From Pteria penguin (taxonomy: Eukaryota; Mollusca; Bivalvia; Pterioida; Pteriidae), in assembly GCA_035048485.1 (NCBI GenBank), contig CM068587.1:35089316-35153315 (forward strand): DNA of 64,000 nt, in the 5' to 3' direction. Positions 9,601 through 55,505 of this stretch are shown one piece after another. Numbering within the stretch: the stretch's first letter is position 1; each line of letters starts with the position of its first letter. The notes beneath the pieces are model-generated. The model was not told where the DNA came from. It saw only the letters and a program-made list of their open reading frames with translations, and ran no database searches. The position numbers were made by a program, and so were the translations under genes.

Positions 9601-12600
9601 TCATTCACGAGTTGAACACGTCATCTACGGAGCCAGCAAGTTTAACATGTACTAAAGGCTGTAGAATAAATGGCAATGTCTTTTATGCAGTGAATCTTAC
9701 AATATACGAAAGTGCTCGTGGAAAATTAATAAAAAATGAAAAAGCGTAGCGGATAAATATAGGGAAAAAAGTGAAACTGATTATCAAACACTTATATGAG
9801 ATGCAACACCAACTCGCTCGTTATCCTCTCCCGCGAACAAACGGATAACGAGCGGAGCAGAGGTAATTAATTAGATTGATGCAACACAATACTTAGTATA
9901 ATCATGCTATTAAGTAGAAAATTAAATTTAGCAAAAGAAATGCTGAGTTATAACAGGATCAGTGGCGTAGCTCGGCAGTGAAAAATGAGGTGGGGGGGGG
10001 GGGGGGGCACAACCTTCCAAACGTGAAAAGTAAAAAAAAAAGAAGAAGTGTCCCCAGCGGCAACAAAGTCCGAAAAAGCTATTTTTAGCACAAAGGTCAC
10101 AGTGAAGGTCTCAAGGTCATTGACCTTGTCCGGTATCAATTGAAAGGGCTTCATTAGTGGAGTATGCATGCCAGATATGAAGTCTATCTTTTTGGTTCAA
10201 AAGTTATGGCGAAGTTTTACAACAGCCACCAGAAAGGGAAAAAAAAGCCAATATGCCCCAGATCTTTCGATCTAGGACATAAAAACTTCTGTTTGAATTT
10301 ATTCCAATTTCCCTCTCTGAACAGGGAAGTATAATCTTAAACTATACACCCTTGCTCTGAATGATTAAATAAAAGACGAATTATTTACTTTAGTACTTTA
10401 GTGGCTACTATGGCTACTAATCAGCAACAAAACATGTTACAGTGTGGTTATTTTTTATTTCACACTTTTATGCACAAGTTAAGTGGGTGGTATGCACATT
10501 AAAGGTCCGTGGCTGCTCATCATGTTACAATGTTCACACTTTAATACTTTCCAAAGAAAGCTTCTCAGTGCTCGTTCTTGCTGACGAATTGTCTTCCAAT
10601 TTGAATGTCATACACATTATCAGTCAGAGTCTAATCCGAAAGACAGAGCACCGGGTATGCCCCCGACGGGTGTCGAACCCGGACCTCTTGGTCACAAGCC
10701 GAACAACTCATCCACTGGACTACACCTGTTATATCTTTCAGATAACAGCAAACTATAATAATGCGACTCTATTGCATTATCTCGGACTTGTATAATATCA
10801 TTCAAAACATAAATACTTACAATGGAAGACATCAAAGATATTTTGTTCGCGAAACTTTCTATTGTTGCAACATATTGCATAATCAGGATACATCAACCTC
10901 CAGTAAAACAGAAAACCTTATCCGCAATTTTGTAGTTACGGATTAGTTGGTTGGTTGGTTGATTGGTGTTTTACGTCGCTTTCAACAATATTTCAGTTAT
11001 ATCGCGACATGGAAGCAGGAGGTTACCAACCTCTTAAACATAGTGGCGCAACCCGGGAATCGAACCCGGATCGTCGGCGCCGCAAGCCAAGCGCTTAACC
11101 ACTACACCACGCCTGCCCCTAGTTAGTTACGGATTAGAAATCAGACATTAAAAATATAAAAGAAAATAGATTTACTTCGCTTAAAATGTCTTATTAAAGT
11201 TTATTTAAACTTTAAATATTACTCTATAAGTGGGGGGCACAAACATGGTTGGGCCCCCCTACCACTTTTCAAAGTGGGGGGGGGGGGGGTTGCCCACGCT
11301 GCCCCTCCCCCCATCTCCTACGTCCTTGCAGGATAGACTAAAAAGAAGACCACGCTAGTGCTCTTTAGCACTAATATTATCCCTATAAGCTGTCGGAGAA
11401 GTTTAACGTACTATGATGGTCTAAGAATTTAAAGTAAGGATACAGAGTTGATTTCTATTTACAGATTGCAGAGAATATATTACGACTGTGTATGACAGAA
11501 CTTTATGATTGGCGATTCATGCAGACAGACCCTAACTGGGCCAACTTCTTCTACAATCCAGAAACTGGCAAAGTAAGATACACAAATATTCTTAATTTCA
11601 GACTGCCTCGATCAGCTGATGGAAAGTTTGCTGCTTAGTAATATTTATTTTCTTTGTATAAATAAGATGCATATCAGCTTTCTAAACCTCATGAAAGCTA
11701 AAGGCATACAAAATCAGCCAAAATAGTAAAAATAGAAAAAAGAACGTCTACTGAAGGGGCACATGTGAATCCTAAAACAAAAGGGTGATCCGGTTGTTCA
11801 GCCTGGGGCTCAAACTAACTTACTTTATCATTTAAAGTTTTTATCCTTCAAAGGCTTGATAAGCCCATTGAAACACATTATATAGATTGCCTAAGAAAAC
11901 TGAATATTTACATAAACCTATAAGAATTTTCTGTTGTCATTGCAGTTAGCACTACTGGATTTCGGAGCTAGTCGATCGTTTCCGACGGAATTCGTCGACA
12001 GATACATTATGATTATCAAATCGGCTGCAGACAAAGATCGAGAGGGTATACTGAAGTATTCACAAGAGGCTGGCTTCCTCACAGGATATGAAAGCAAGGT
12101 AACTACACATTCAATCTCACTCCCTTTCGTCAAATAATGAAACTTTTTTTTCTCCACTTTGAGTGGCAATGTTGATCAGTGGATGAGGTGCTTGGCTCAT
12201 AACTGAGAGTTCTCTGGTTCGATTCCCACCAAGGGCATACTGTGTGCCCTGTCTTGGATAAAACAGGTAAACCGAGATCCCGTGTCACGATAAACGTGGC
12301 GTGTACAGATCACTCTCTCCTTCAGGTGGGCCCGTTGCAAAAGTAAAATTTCTATAAAATGCATTAGGTAGATGAAGTCACGGTATGCCTAAAGTAATCG
12401 TGGAGTGACAACTCTATAAATTTGTATATGAACCACTACAGTGTCGGATAGGGCTTACCAGTAGGAGTTGCTGCATGTTTTGTCTCGCCTTTAGTTAGAG
12501 TGTACAGTACATGTTTCACCTTTCTTACAAAGTTTCCCATCCTTAAAAGTTTGTCTATCAGAGTTCACCCATCAGAGTTGTTTCTCAAATTGTAAATCAT

Positions 12601-23261: not shown

Positions 23262-23390
23262 TTGCGGCGCCGACGATACGGGTTTGATTCCCGGATTGCG
23301 CCACTACGTTTAAGGGGTTGGTTACCTCCTGCTTCCATGTCGCGATATAACTGAAAAATTGTTGAAAGCGACGTAAAACACCAATCAACA
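23262..23390 (+). mobile_element. SINE family B fragment abutting the miniature LTR-like element
   Basis: Starts at ttgcggcgccgacgatacgg, with B box, body and tail to caccaatcaaca. The tRNA-like 5' third is missing. The tail touches the start of the element at 23394. Confidence 0.88.
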
Positions 23391-23393
23391 TAT

Positions 23394-23541
23394 CGTGACG
23401 GAGACATAAAAACGAGGTTAACGCCTTCGCCAGTGAGTTAGCTTTTCTGGCAATGTGGTTATCCTCGCCCAGTTTTGTTGCAAAGTTAAGCAGTGTGGGC
23501 AGTGTCTGGGTGGCCGATGGGTGACCCGCCGACACGTTACA
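23394..23541 (+). repeat. Left terminal repeat with 5S-like block
   Basis: The 5S-like block runs about 23482-23530: A-box-like aaagttaagcagtg, intermediate gggc, and C-box-like gatgggtgacccgcc. Its first part (ttagcttttctggcaatgtg, gttatcctcg) matches the right repeat. Confidence 0.7.
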
Positions 23542-23736
23542 TTTGGTGGCAGCGTAGTCACCCTAGCATTTGAGTAACCGGTCTCCTAGTCATCCTCTTT
23601 GGATGGACAGACAGTTGGCCTGGGGGCAGGGTGTTCCTGCGATAGTAGACTGGATGTGTACTGTAGGAGAGGTCACTTGGTTGACTAGGGGAACCCACAG
23701 TCCTAAGATTTGGGTCGAAGCCTTCTAGAAGAGTAG

Positions 23737-23882
23737 TGTGACAGACATATAAACAAGTTGAACTCCCTCGCTAATGACCTAGCTTTTCTGGCGATGTGGC
23801 TATCCTCGTCCAGCTTTGACGCAAAGTAAAGCAACTGTGAGTGCGTGCAGTACTGGGATGGGTGACCCGCCGACACGTTATA
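23737..23882 (+). repeat. Right terminal repeat with 5S-like block
   Basis: The 5S-like block runs about 23823-23871. This copy is nearer to canonical 5S than the left one, with aaagtaaagcaactg and agtactgggatgggtgacc. Confidence 0.7.
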
Positions 23883-24240
23883 ACATGGTAAAACCCAAAT
23901 TTCTCATTTTTAGCTTCAAATCTAATCCTATTTGTTCTTTATTGAAAAAGAAAAATCAAATCAGTCTTACCTAGTTAATGTGAACTTTTATTCACAGCTT
24001 TGTTGCAAAAGATTTAACAAAAACTATTGGCATTTCATCAAAGTAAACTACAGTTTGGAAACCCTACTATTCGTGAAAAGCATGAAAATAAACTCGGATA
24101 AAACACATATGTGCAGTTATATGTAATATTTAAAATGTACATTATATGAATATTCAAAAGAAGTAAAACAAACAAACCTGTTGTCAAATTTTCTAACCCG
24201 TTTTCATGTATGATCATTAACCTTTTTTATATAATCTGAA

Positions 24241-25068
24241 TCAGGTTTCTCTGGATTCCATAAAATTTCTTAAAACGTTATCATTCGCGATACTGTACCC
24301 GATCCTATGGTTACAGTAAAACCAATACGAACTGCGGTAGGCGTCTGTGCTCACGTGATCAGAACACCACATCCTCTGACAGAAGTTACACGTTCTCTGC
24401 ATTGGTGACCGCAATTTCAGTTCCGTGCGACACCGGCAATGGCCTTCATGAGGCGTTACAATATCTCTGAGTCTATTCTTTACGGAGTTCATTCTTTGCT
24501 TGACACAGACGAACTCTTCTTTGTCCGCTTCCAGTCTTTCTAATCTACGCTCGTAAATTTTGTTTTTGACCTCTAAAGATATCTCTTCGTTTACTTTCAG
24601 CAAGCGCCACAAACTTTTAGAAAGAGAACATTTCTCCATGCAATAGCTCAATAGCTGTTCTAGATTGAACTGATCCGCGGCCTTAATGCACTGAATAATA
24701 AAATCCTGCGGTTGTTCGAGCTCGATCTCATTCAGAAGGGTCTCCTCACATTTGTCTCTGAGTTTCTTTATTTGATATTCCTCCGCTAGAGGGAGCAATC
24801 TGAACGCGGCGTTGACACCATCTTCGAGCTCGTCATCTGTTCCCGGGTTTAGGAAATTCAGAAGTTCGGATATGTCTCGATGTCTTTTCCCGGGAAGCTC
24901 AACTTCATCTTGATTTTTCTCTTTAAAGTGTGAGGTAAACATACATTTGAATACGGGTGAAGCATATGCCAAGAGACACTTACTGGTTTTGAACCTATGA
25001 CCATCTACAAGTAAGATTATGTCTGTGAGAGATTCTTCTTCTTCTGCCTCGAATAACAGCGCATTCAT
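24241..25068 (-). CDS. BTB/POZ domain protein with C-terminal Cys/His cluster, single exon
   Basis: The 275-residue protein has ATG at 25068 and an in-frame stop shortly upstream. Residues 13-115 form a BTB/POZ fold (SLTDIILLVDGHRFKTSKCL, ASPVFKCMFTSHFKE, VELPGKRHRDISELLNFLNP, LAEEYQIKKLRDKCEETLL), which normally mediates dimerisation and, in many relatives, recruitment of cullin-3 ligases. Residues 116-165 look like the helical segment that follows BTB domains, and about 166-205 is a charged helix. The C-terminus has H210, C211, C213, C227, C230, C235, H238, C252 and H254, suggesting zinc binding. There is no MATH or Kelch domain. Such BTB genes are expanded in bivalves; the partner is unknown. 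Confidence 0.9.
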   Translation of the reverse strand: MNALLFEAEEEESLTDIILLVDGHRFKTSKCLLAYASPVFKCMFTSHFKEKNQDEVELPGKRHRDISELLNFLNPGTDDELEDGVNAAFRLLPLAEEYQIKKLRDKCEETLLNEIELEQPQDFIIQCIKAADQFNLEQLLSYCMEKCSLSKSLWRLLKVNEEISLEVKNKIYERRLERLEADKEEFVCVKQRMNSVKNRLRDIVTPHEGHCRCRTELKLRSPMQRTCNFCQRMWCSDHVSTDAYRSSYWFYCNHRIGYSIANDNVLRNFMESRET

Positions 25069-25108
25069 TCTCTCTCTAAGCAGTCAAAGACGTACATAGC
25101 GACACCTA

Positions 25109-47876: not shown

Positions 47877-48078
47877 CTTTTTCTTGTTTTGGGGGCAGGC
47901 TTGGTGTAGTGGTTAAGCGCTTGGCTTGCGGCGCCGACGGTCCGGGTTCGATTCCCGGGTTGCGCCACTATGTTTAAGAGGTTGGTTACCTCCTGTTTCC
48001 ATGTCGCGATATAATTGAAAAATTGTTGAAAGCGACGTAAAACACCAGTCAACCAACCAACCAACTTTTTCTTGTTTT
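47877..48078 (+). mobile_element. SINE family B, full length, 14-bp target duplications
   Basis: The body is 47891-48064, with gggggcaggcttggtgtagt and gttaagcgcttggcttgcgg (A box region), B box, tail and (caac)n. The flank ctttttcttgtttt is identical on both sides (47877-47890 and 48065-48078). A recent insertion. Confidence 0.95.
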
Positions 48079-51774: not shown

Positions 51775-52880
51775 TCTGAGGCGCTGGGATAGGTCGTTGA
51801 ATATCTCGAGCAGCAAGATAAGTAATGCAACACTAGGTATATTGGAATGGATGATTATATAAAATAACACTGCGATAAATGATTCAGTATCGGTGTACTG
51901 GAGTAGGTGATTCCATATCAAGGCACCCAGATATAGATGGTTCAATAGAGCACTGGGATAGGTGATTCGCGTAATCGGTGATATCAGCATAAGGTCACTG
52001 AGATCGGTGACTCAATAGCAGGGCTCTCGCTGTGATCATGATTCTAAATCAGAGCACCGAGATTGATGACTCAATATCAGAGCACCGAGATAGATGACTC
52101 AATATCAGAGCGCCGAGATAGATGACTCAATATCAGGGGACCGAGATAGATGACTTAATATCAGAGCACCGAGATAGATAATTCAATATCAGGACACCGA
52201 GATAGATGACTTAATATCAGAGCACCGAGATAGATGACTCAATATCAGAGCGCCGAGATAGATGACTCAATATCAGGGGACCGAGATAGATGACTTAATA
52301 TCAGAGCACCGAGATAGATAATTCAATATCAGGACACCGAGATAGATGACTTAATATCAGAGCACCGAGATAGATGACTCAATGTCAGAGCACCGAGATT
52401 GATGACTCAATATCAGAGCACCGAGATAGATGACTCAATATCAGAGCACCGAGATAGATGACTCAATATCAGGGCACCGAGATAGATGACTCAATATAAG
52501 GGCACCGAGATAGATGACTCACTATCATGCCACCGAGATAGATGATTCAACGTCAGAGTACCGAGACAGATGACTCAAAATTAAGGCACCGAGATAGATG
52601 ACTATATCAGGGCACCGAGACAGATGACTCAGTACCAAAGAATCGAGATAAATGATTCAATATTAGGGCACCGAGACAGATGACTTAATATCAGGGCACC
52701 GAGATAGATGACTCAATATCAGGGCACCAAGATAGATGTCTCAATATTAGGGCGCCGAAATAGATGATTCAATATCAGGGCACTTAGATAAATGACTCAA
52801 TATCAGGGCACCGAGATAGATGACTCAATATCAGGGCACCGAGATAGATGATTCTACACGAGTAACTGGGATAGGTGATT
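51775..52880. repeat. Satellite array A, 28-bp unit
   Basis: The unit reads gatagatgactcaatatcag then agcaccga. It is most regular from about 52020 to 52850 and degenerate on both sides. There are about 30 copies with variants (gggg, gcgc, gaca). It contains TGACTCA in most copies. Confidence 0.95.
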
Positions 52881-55505
52881 CATAATCATAGTGATGGAAT
52901 AGGTGATTCGACATTAGAGCTTGACATAGGTGACCTAGGATTGGTGCACTGGAACAATGATAGGGCGACTCAATATGTCCGGACCGAGACAAGTGATTAC
53001 ATACCAGGGCCATGACAAAGGTATCTCAGTATCAGAGCAGTGGGATTGTACTGAGACAGGTGACTCAGTACAGGGGCATCAGGATTTTACCGAGATAGTT
53101 GAGTCAGTATCGGGCACTAGGATTGTACTGAGATAGATGACTCAGTATCGGTGCACTGGGATTATACTGAGATAGGTGACTCAGTATCGGTGCACTGGGA
53201 TTGTACTGAGATAGATGACTCAGTATCGGTGCAATGGGATTATACTGAGATAGGTGACTCAGTATCGGGGCACTAGGATTGTACTGAGATAGGTGACTCG
53301 GTATCGGTGCACTGGGATTATACTGAGATAGGTGACTCAGTATCGGGGCACTAGGATTGTACTGAGATAGGTGACTCAGTATCGGGGCACTGGGATTATA
53401 CTGAGATAGGTGACTCAGTATCGGGGCACTGGGATTATATTTGCCAATAAGTATTTTATTATGTAATCATATTATAGGATTTATGGCAGTTATAATAATA
53501 TAGATACAATTGATGCAATTGGCACTGAAATGCCAACAGATAGGCCAGAAAACTATTTTGTTTAGGAATTTATTTTTTGTTTTGCTTGCCGGCAACGAAA
53601 CATATACTGTAGAGATAATTTTATCCGTTGTCCGAATAAATATACGTCTGTGACTCAGTATCGGAGCACTGGGATTGTACTGAGATAAGTGACTCAGTAT
53701 CGGGCACTGGGATTGTACTGAGCTGGTGACTCAGTATCGGACACTGGGATTGTACTGAGATAGATGACTCAGTATCGGGCACTGGGATTATACTGAGATA
53801 GGTGACTCAATATCGGGGCACTGGGATTGTACTGAGCTGGTGACTCAGTATCGGTCACTGGGATTGTACTGAGATAGATGACTCAGTATCGGGCACTGGG
53901 ATTATACTGAGATAAGTGACTCAATATCGGGCACTGGGATTGTACTGAGATAAGTGACTCAATATCGGGCACTGGGATTGTACTGAGATTGGTGACTCAA
54001 TATCGGGCACTGGGATTGTACTGATATAGGTGATTCAGTATCGGGCACTGGAATTGTACTGAGCTGGTGAATCAGTATCGGGCACTGGGATTGTACTGAG
54101 CTGGTGACTCAGTATCGGGGCACTAGGATTGTACTGAGCTGGTGAATCAGTATCGGGCACTGGGAATGTATTGAGCTGGTGACTCAGTATCGGGCACTGG
54201 GATTATACTGAGATAGGTGACTCAGTATCGGACACTGGGATTGTACTGAGCTGGTGACTCAGTATCGGGCACTAGGATTGTACTGAGATAGGTGACTCAG
54301 TATCGGGGCACTAGGATTGTACTGAGCTGGTGAATCAGTATCGGGCACTGGGATTGTACTGAGATAGGTGACTCAGTATCGGGGCACTGGGATTATACTG
54401 AGATAGGTGACTCAGTATCGGGGCACTGGGATTATATTTGCCAATAAGTATTTTATTATGTAATCATATTATAGGAGTTATGGCAGTTATAATAATATAG
54501 ATACAATTGATGCAATTGGCACTGAAATGCCAACAGATAGGCCAGAAAACTATTTTGTTTAGGAATTTATTTTTTGTTTTGCTTGCCGGCAACGAAACAT
54601 ATACTGTAGAGATAATTTTATCCGTTGTCCGAATAAATATACGTCTGTGACTCAGTATCGGAGCACTGGGATTGTACTGAGATAAGTGACTCAGTATCGG
54701 GCACTGGGATTGTACTGAGCTGGTGACTCAGTATCGGACACTGGGATTGTACTGAGATAGATGACTCAGTATCGGGCACTGGGATTATACTGAGATAGGT
54801 GACTCAATATCGGGGCACTGGGATTGTACTGAGCTGGTGACTCAGTATCGGTCACTGGGATTGTACTGAGATAGATGACTCAGTATCGGGCACTGGGATT
54901 ATACTGAGATAAGTGACTCAATATCGGGCACTGGGATTGTACTGAGATAAGTGACTCAATATCAGGCACTGGGATTGTACTGAGATTGGTGACTCAATAT
55001 CGGGCACTGGGATTGTACTGAGATAGGTGATTCAGTATCGGGCACTGGGATTGTACTGAGCTGGTGAATCAGTATCGGGCACTGGGATTGTACTGAGCTG
55101 GTGACTCAGTATCGGGGCACTAGGATTGTACTGAGCTGGTGAATCAGTATCGGGCACTGGGAATGTACTGAGCTGGTGACTCAGTATCGGGCACTGGGAT
55201 TATACTGAGATAGGTGACTCAGTATCGGACACTGGGATTGTACTGAGCTGGTGACTCAGTATCGGGCACTAGGATTGTACTGAGATAGGTGACTCAGTAT
55301 CGGGGCACTAGGATTGTACTGAGCTGGTGAATCAGTATCGGGCACTGGGATTGTACTGAGATATGTGACTCAGTATCGGGGCACTAGGATTGTACTAAGA
55401 TAGGTGACTCAGTATCGGGGCACTAGGATTGTACTGAGATAGGTGACTCAGTATCGGGCACTGGGATTTTACTGAGATAAGTGAATCATTATCAGGACAC
55501 TAAGA
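52881..55505. repeat. Satellite array B, 36-39-bp unit, including a 997-bp tandem duplication
   Basis: The unit reads gataggtgactcagtatcgg then ggcactgggattgtactga (39 bp); gagctggtgac variants are shorter. A 205-bp non-repetitive insert (ttgccaataagtattttatt to gaataaatatacgtctg) occurs at 53441-53650 and again at 54438-54647. Copy-to-copy differences across this 997-bp unit are few. It covers about 2.6 kb. Confidence 0.95.

Follow-up and report, generated by a model that had tools for sequence, protein, structure and literature searches.

A dispersed TRIM family with 5S-derived promoter blocks in its LTRs in the bivalve Pteria penguin

Introduction

In the literature searched, TRIMs of the 5S type are represented by Cassandra in land plants and by Ajax in two nemerteans. 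Ajax comprises the elements Ajax-1_NGe and Ajax-1_LiLo, of 434 and 421 bp, which carry a partial 5S promoter, a primer-binding site (PBS) for tRNA-Leu and target-site duplications (TSDs) of 5 bp (Kojima, 2024; PMC10886601). Cassandra elements are 565–860 bp long, with the PBS TGGTATCAGAGC and with LTRs in which box A is followed, after 18 nucleotides (N18), by box C (PMC7215508). Both their start and their terminator lie inside the LTR, which gives an R repeat of 18 bp, and in Kojima's view Ajax and Cassandra arose independently (PMC10886601). Helenus elements, described from fungi, animals including bivalves, and one plant, have tRNA-like LTRs, and in animals their TSDs are 4 bp long (PMC10886601). 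From bivalves, biv-TRIM is described with TDRs of 202–218 bp, an internal part of 77–80 bp, the polypurine tract (PPT) GGGGAGA, no clear PBS, the inner sequence TGATCCCAAAGGAC, and solo and tandem forms; a 5S part is not reported in the accessible text of that description (PMC6934838). A 5S-derived Pol III promoter is also present in SINE3 and other 5S-derived SINEs, which have no LTRs and carry the 5S part at their head (PMC10886601).

The stretch of P. penguin DNA analysed here, referred to as the window, is 64,000 nucleotides long, and its positions 23394–23882 hold a single copy of a dispersed repeat family. The copy measures 489 bp, with repeats of 148 and 146 bp on either side of a 195-bp middle, as had been proposed by a sequence-only reading of the locus (two repeats of about 147 bp around a 195-bp spacer), and its boundaries agree with those of the family. 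Like Ajax, it is a TRIM whose LTRs contain of 5S no more than the promoter region, with a tRNA-Leu PBS and a similar size (434/421 versus 489 bp), and of the succession box A, intermediate element (IE) and box C that characterises the Ajax LTR, the box A region and box C are kept while the IE part is altered (PMC10886601). By description, it differs from Ajax in the length of the TSD (4 versus 5 bp) and in its host, since Ajax is reported from nemerteans only in the accessible text (PMC10886601). Compared in this way, the bivalve family stands closest to Ajax and is of the TRIMp3 kind, with a Pol III promoter block derived from a small-RNA gene in its LTR, as judged against the host 5S; we do not assign it to Ajax itself, given the different TSD length and a comparison made by description only. 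The difference in TSD length points to another helper or another origin.

With Cassandra, the element shares box A-N18-box C at the same spacing in the LTRs, but its PBS is TGGTGGCAGCG instead of TGGTATCAGAGC (PMC7215508), and its predicted R is about 12 nt instead of 18 bp (PMC10886601). Biv-TRIM, likewise a bivalve TRIM with solo and tandem forms, is set apart by description, the lengths of the present element being 148/195/146 bp (PMC6934838), and its inner sequence TGATCCCAAAGGAC is absent from the 5S element at up to three mismatches. Helenus, too, is a TRIM whose LTR contains a Pol III promoter-like part, and its animal members share the TSD length of 4 bp, but there the promoter part derives from a tRNA and not from 5S (PMC10886601). 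The combination that defines the SINE3 class, a 5S-like head and a LINE-type tail without LTR or PBS, is not that of the bivalve element.

The sequence-only reading had regarded the element as new for an animal and knew of no well-described mollusc equivalent. For molluscs, no 5S-type TRIM was found in the literature search, whose scope lay outside Repbase, supplements and most subscription journals; an animal case is already known, however, in Ajax of two nemerteans (PMC10886601). Within the searched literature, the bivalve family thus adds a second animal phylum. We consider it highly probable that the element is a non-autonomous, non-coding TRIM into whose LTRs the internal control region was taken up from a metazoan 5S gene and which would follow the Pol III cycle proposed below. 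What the bivalve genome holds is a genuine TRIMp3 family, present in many copies and carrying a 5S promoter, and by analogy it most likely works like Cassandra and Ajax.

Structure of the window copy

The features of the window copy are collected in Table 1. Between its two direct repeats, the gapped identity is 79% (BLASTN, E of about 2e-22). Two LTRs around an internal part, a length below 1 kb and occurrence in many copies are what defines a TRIM, and a PBS after the 5′ LTR, a PPT before the 3′ LTR and a TSD at 4 bp, within the expected 4–6 bp, are present as well. The terminal TG is mutated, the PPT is broken and the TSD contains one mismatch; as an insertion, the window copy is old and decayed, a fossil. 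Although 13 open reading frames of at least 30 aa overlap the element, the longest of them, of 143 aa, extends into the flank. The element can be taken as non-coding from the shortness of its frames and the decay of the family, the protein search having covered the antisense LTR frame only.

Table 1. Features of the 5S-type TRIM copy and its flanks, in window coordinates
Feature	Position	Strand	Basis
Left TSD atat (right partner acat, one mismatch)	23390..23393	.	4-bp TSD is the family rule
5′ LTR, 148 bp, CGTGACGG...CGTTACA (family-typical: TGTGACGG...CGTTACA)	23394..23541	+	Repeat alignment, family ends
Predicted Pol III initiation (+1 around 23435) with the shared TTTT 23443–23446, 5′ LTR	23435..23446	+	Alignment to 5S geometry; TTTT in 31/38 aligned copies; proposed role
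5S-derived block, 5′ LTR, spanning the box A and box C regions; diverged in window copy	23483..23530	+	5S alignment; weak taken alone
Internal region, 195 bp	23542..23736	+	Between LTRs
PBS TGGTGGCAGCG, complementary to 3′ end plus CCA of host tRNA-Leu(AAG/UAG), 2 nt past LTR	23544..23554	+	
Polypurine tract remnant AGAAGAG (family: GAAGAGGGAG then TAG), directly 5′ of 3′ LTR	23727..23733	+	
3′ LTR, 146 bp, TGTGACAG...CGTTATA	23737..23882	+	Repeat alignment, family ends
Start/TTTT pair, 3′ LTR; predicted RNA 3′ end at TTTT 23784–23787	23776..23787	+	TTTT in 30/37 aligned copies; proposed role
5S-derived block, 3′ LTR: box A region, altered middle, box C region	23824..23871	+	Score 47 versus host 5S; best 5S-like place in window
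Right TSD acat	23883..23886	.	4-bp TSD is the family rule

Copies and insertion sites in the host genome

The host genome (838 Mb in 49 contigs) was searched with three queries, the results of which were merged at 1.5 kb. The family occupies at least 72 places on 14 contigs: the whole element as query detected 40 of them, the middle alone 6 and the LTR alone 24, and the other 2 were hit by both partial queries. Taken singly, the whole element gave at least 47 matches at 71–100% identity (40 of 240 candidates scored), the middle at least 42 (40 of 114 candidates scored) and the 3′ LTR at least 42 (40 of 188 candidates scored); these counts are lower bounds, and the copies were found through their likeness to the window copy. 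The 39 other whole-element places were taken with their flanks, and the window element was mapped onto each. A typical family LTR is about 147 bp long and has the ends TGTGACGG and CGTTACA.

Both termini are recognisable in 27 copies, and 17 of these are flanked by 4-bp TSDs with at most one mismatch, five of them exact. None of 10000 re-pairings of the flanks reached either count (means of 3.4 and 0.36, respectively), and over all 40 copies the numbers are likewise 17 and 5. A TSD of 5 bp was rejected: at the family ends it gives no exact pair and one of 27 with at most one mismatch, none of it above chance, and the best shifted 5-bp register yields one exact pair and 9/40 with at most one mismatch, compared with 5 and 17/40 at 4 bp. 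The multi-copy occurrence with TSDs of 4–6 bp that was envisaged for the locus is therefore borne out by at least 72 places and a 4-bp rule, to which the window copy conforms with one mismatch.

Seven loci were initially noted as candidates for solo LTRs. One (L089) is clearly a solo LTR and is flanked by an exact cgcc duplication; two (L080 and L094) are preceded by a PPT-like sequence and are probably truncated copies, and another (L084) is without a normal 3′ end. Some LTRs have no second LTR or middle within 1.5 kb, and tandem forms are represented by neighbouring matches on one contig (C13:8447064 and C13:8447334) and by a further locus (L106). The sequence-only reading had allowed that the copies might prove to be tandem or solo units without the order of LTR and PBS; instead, the order LTR-PBS-PPT-LTR is found in tens of copies. 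Together with the dispersal, the 4-bp TSDs, the solo LTR and the 5S-type block, it upholds the proposed miniature LTR element.

For the LTR alignment, 76 of the 80 LTRs of 40 copies were retained, those with fewer than 100 aligned bases or stretched beyond 190 being dropped, and the mean majority share of the columns is 0.85. LTR identity is 0.744 within copies and 0.729 between copies, a value reached in 3 of 10000 permutations. A copy's own LTR pair is closer than average in 26/36 copies, and its own 3′ LTR is the best match of its 5′ LTR in 4/36. LTR pairs of one copy would be expected to be clearly closer than random pairs, and they were found to be only slightly closer; this small gap fits an old burst from near-identical masters. 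Judged by its sequences, the family appears old, and the divergence of about a quarter between the LTRs, which had been counted as a weak point of the window copy, is usual in it.

Used as a protein query, the antisense open frame of the LTR, a chance frame, found one frame of 71 aa in a public ENA contig of 12159 bases (P0022; E 8e-7). It looks like an antisense reading of a related LTR, and the contig is possibly from the same species, which is only a hint. Exact searches of viral and prokaryote contigs for the LTR end and for animal 5S gave no match.

Origin of the 5S-like block

The 5S gene of the host was found with Rfam RF00001 (best match 116.7 bits), and among the 46 matches listed, 45 lie in one region of contig C11 and the other on C6, with 47 of 16310 candidates scored. 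When the majority sequence of the 76 LTRs is compared with this gene, its 48-nt block scores 62, while the best of 5000 dinucleotide shuffles scores 26; a fall of the 5S similarity to chance in the family consensus, which had been considered beforehand, is the opposite of what is seen. The block corresponds approximately to host 5S positions 49–95: its first 18 bases are identical, the middle, where the intermediate element is located, is changed, and box C is identical but for one added C. The first 48 nt of 5S are not recognisable in the family block. Individually, 71/76 LTRs lie above the 95% point of the shuffles, and the reverse complements of the LTRs lie at shuffle level. By its sequence, the block is of 5S internal promoter origin and was most probably captured from a metazoan 5S rRNA gene.

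In the window copy itself, the distance from the start of box A to the start of GGATGGG (CGATGGG in the 5′ LTR) is 33 nt in both LTRs (23482 to 23515 and 23823 to 23856), exactly as the sequence-only reading had stated. Its claim that both repeats hold 5S-like boxes holds firmly for the 3′ LTR, which scores 47 against the host 5S (best of 5000 shuffles 31), whereas the 5′ LTR is weak when taken alone, with a score of 23 that 36/5000 shuffles reach. A scan of the whole window against 5S in 146-nt pieces on both strands agrees with this, the pieces with the 3′ LTR block scoring 47 (30 where the block is cut) and the best elsewhere 28, with the 5′ LTR outside the 12 best pieces. Of all sites in the window, the one in the 3′ LTR comes closest to the Cassandra pattern box A-N18-box C, with 2/25 mismatches; the best sites of 100 whole-window shuffles have 3 to 6. 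The 5′ LTR fits the pattern with 5/25, which is matched by 8/5000 shuffles of that LTR and is not distinctive window-wide, as a tandem array near 53 kb contains no fewer than five sites with this number of mismatches. This array (53025–55501, units of about 39 bp) holds words like that of the 5S box C (AGATAGGTGACT) and can yield 5S-like matches by chance; another long array, with units of about 28 bp, lies at 52048–52851. The 5S case of the window copy thus rests on its 3′ LTR, and in the family it is far beyond chance. The sequence-only reading had suggested aligning the repeats to 5S with a covariance model; in the Rfam scan of window and element, nothing of 5S was matched in the element up to E 10, since the element has kept no more of 5S than its promoter.

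Measured in aligned columns, the distance between the boxes is unchanged in 52 of the 69 measurable LTRs (of 76). A best free match finds both boxes with at most three mismatches in 66/76 LTRs and the 18-nt gap in just 21 of these, a count which is misleading because of a second box-A-like word near the LTR start, and the aligned columns were used in its place. The boxes are not better kept than their surroundings (conservation of 0.851 for box A and 0.856 for box C versus 0.860 for the first part of the LTR), which is expected after neutral decay, yet gives no support for selection.

Primer, polypurine tract and candidate helpers

Two bases past the 5′ LTR, the PBS TGGTGGCAGCG is exact in 14 and has at most one mismatch in 30 of the 39 copies from which this piece was obtained. 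Since a look-up of tRNA-Leu in a viral contig yielded no tRNA, the host's own genes were used instead. The tRNA end GGTTCGAATCCCACCGCTGCCA occurs at 13 places in the host, and the six loci examined are tRNA-Leu with anticodon AAG or UAG (ARAGORN); host tRNA-Leu genes end in CCGCTGCCA, and the reverse complement of the 3′ end plus CCA is TGGTGGCAGCGGTGGG. The match of PBS and tRNA runs for 11 nt and then breaks, a longer match being kept in a few copies (L095, L097). The primer, for which the sequence-only reading had named no tRNA, is thereby assigned to host tRNA-Leu(AAG/UAG). Genes for tRNA-Leu(AAG) and tRNA-Leu(UAG) form a cluster on both strands of host contig C5, at about 30.836–30.843 Mb (L050–L054). 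At the other end of the internal region, the majority of 37 copies reads GAAGAGGGAG, TAG and then TGTGACGG, and this tract is partly lost in the window copy.

The LTR end followed by the longer tRNA-Leu PBS, with at most two mismatches, occurs at 16 places in the host, 4 of which (L095, L097, L106 and L107) belong to the 5S-TRIM family. None of the 12 non-family loci, taken with 1.5 kb on each side, has the LTR or internal sequence of the 5S-TRIM. Eight of them (L098, L101–L105, L108 and L110) have in common an LTR-like stretch, about 507 bp long and 96–99% alike, of the form TGTAGCAT...CGTTACA with the tRNA-Leu PBS TGGTGGCAGCGGTGGG; L101, L102, L103 and L105 are alike upstream too and are therefore not independent insertions. 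This set is a young LTR-retrotransposon-like family of the host genome. Another locus (L109) has a gag-like frame of 246 aa with 19 relatives, one of them named CCHC-type and one carrying PF03732, which we take to be Retrotrans_gag; the Pfam matches of the frame itself are all below the cut-off. Possible helpers with the same primer exist, and none is tied to the 5S-TRIM.

Shared TTTT sites and a proposed Pol III cycle

In a 5S gene, the start lies 48 nt before the first base matched by the block, and projecting this distance onto the element places +1 at about 23435 and 23776. When TTTT runs are projected from the 40 copies, the only positions common to at least six of them are 23443 (31/38) and 23784 (30/37), each 8 nt after a predicted start. 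Their four columns are kept at 0.961, versus 0.879 for the other T columns of the LTR, a level reached by 4/10000 random sets of four columns. Between the two shared sites, a TTTT occurs in 18/40 copies, while shuffles expect 28.5.

On this geometry, the 5S block of the 5′ LTR would be recognised by TFIIIA and Pol III, with initiation near 23435, some 48 nt upstream of its box A. As start and terminator form a pair within one LTR, the 5′ TTTT, 8 nt downstream, must be read through; Pol III would continue through what is left of the 5′ LTR and through the internal region, enter the 3′ LTR and stop at the TTTT near its start (23784–23787), giving an RNA of about 350 nt with some 12 nt repeated at both ends as R. 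First-strand synthesis would be primed by tRNA-Leu at the PBS, R would permit the strand jump, and the polypurine tract would prime the second strand. The reverse transcriptase and integrase of an autonomous element would then insert the copy with a 4-bp duplication. That this helper is probably of the Gypsy type is a guess from the 4-bp TSD and from the link that Kojima draws between animal Helenus and Gypsy. The two shared TTTT sites predict the ends of the RNA precisely, and they make directly testable how a Pol III RNA could feed an LTR cycle, including the read-through of the first terminator.

Tentatively, and with somewhat less than even confidence, the molluscs may harbour a second animal lineage of LTR retrotransposons in which the whole RNA cycle runs on Pol III. 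A start with a TTTT 8 nt behind it would make a minimal R of about 12 nt, one signal serving as both start and stop, and the 5S block would have been either taken up independently of Ajax or passed between phyla.

Alternative explanations

A TRIM transcribed by Pol II, with the 5S block as a passive relic or an enhancer-like part, would agree with box columns that decay like the remaining LTR and with the altered intermediate-element part. Such a reading is nevertheless unlikely, as 5S sequence and spacing are retained family-wide in the box A region and in box C, and the sole widely shared TTTT sites stand where the R repeat of a Pol III transcript needs them. The family might also have arisen by deletion from an autonomous LTR element that has the same 5S LTR in its full-length form, and several host LTR elements do share the PBS and the CGTTACA end; the lack of shared LTR or internal sequence within 1.5 kb at the 12 non-family loci, and the LTR-like stretch of about 507 bp, with the start TGTAGCAT, in the one young family looked at, make this quite improbable.

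The remaining explanations dispense with an LTR element altogether. That 5S-headed SINEs of the SINE3 type came to stand in tandem by chance is highly improbable: short dispersed repeats with a 5S promoter block are the hallmark of SINE3, and single units occur, but tens of copies have LTR, internal part and LTR with PBS and PPT, the ends are TG...CA with 4-bp duplications, no tail was seen by eye in the listed flanks, and the unit has its block at the 3′ end and not at the head. Decayed 5S rDNA or an immobile tandem satellite, which the 5S similarity and the tandem copies on C13 and at L106 might suggest, is scarcely conceivable given a family spread over 14 contigs, with nearly all listed 5S matches in one C11 region, a recognisable 5S part confined to positions 49–95, and TSDs. 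The TRIM with a captured 5S promoter and a Pol III cycle remains the preferred reading.

Neighbourhood of the element

A BTB-domain gene (Pfam) adjoins the element at 24241–25083 on the minus strand; its best named relatives are from the bivalves Mytilus, Mizuhopecten, Pinctada, Potamilus and Sinanodonta, at 50–67% identity, followed by the snail Haliotis, which by itself would place the host among bivalves. On the other side, a shortened copy of a tRNA-headed SINE (23262–23389) stops immediately before the TRIM. Compared by eye, this SINE belongs to a tRNA-Arg-like family with a tRNA head, then TTTAAGAGGTTGGTTACCTCC and a CAACC-like repeat tail; a fuller copy lies at about 47894–48060 and another at 11045–11117 on the minus strand, and two copies were called tRNA-Arg genes by ARAGORN.
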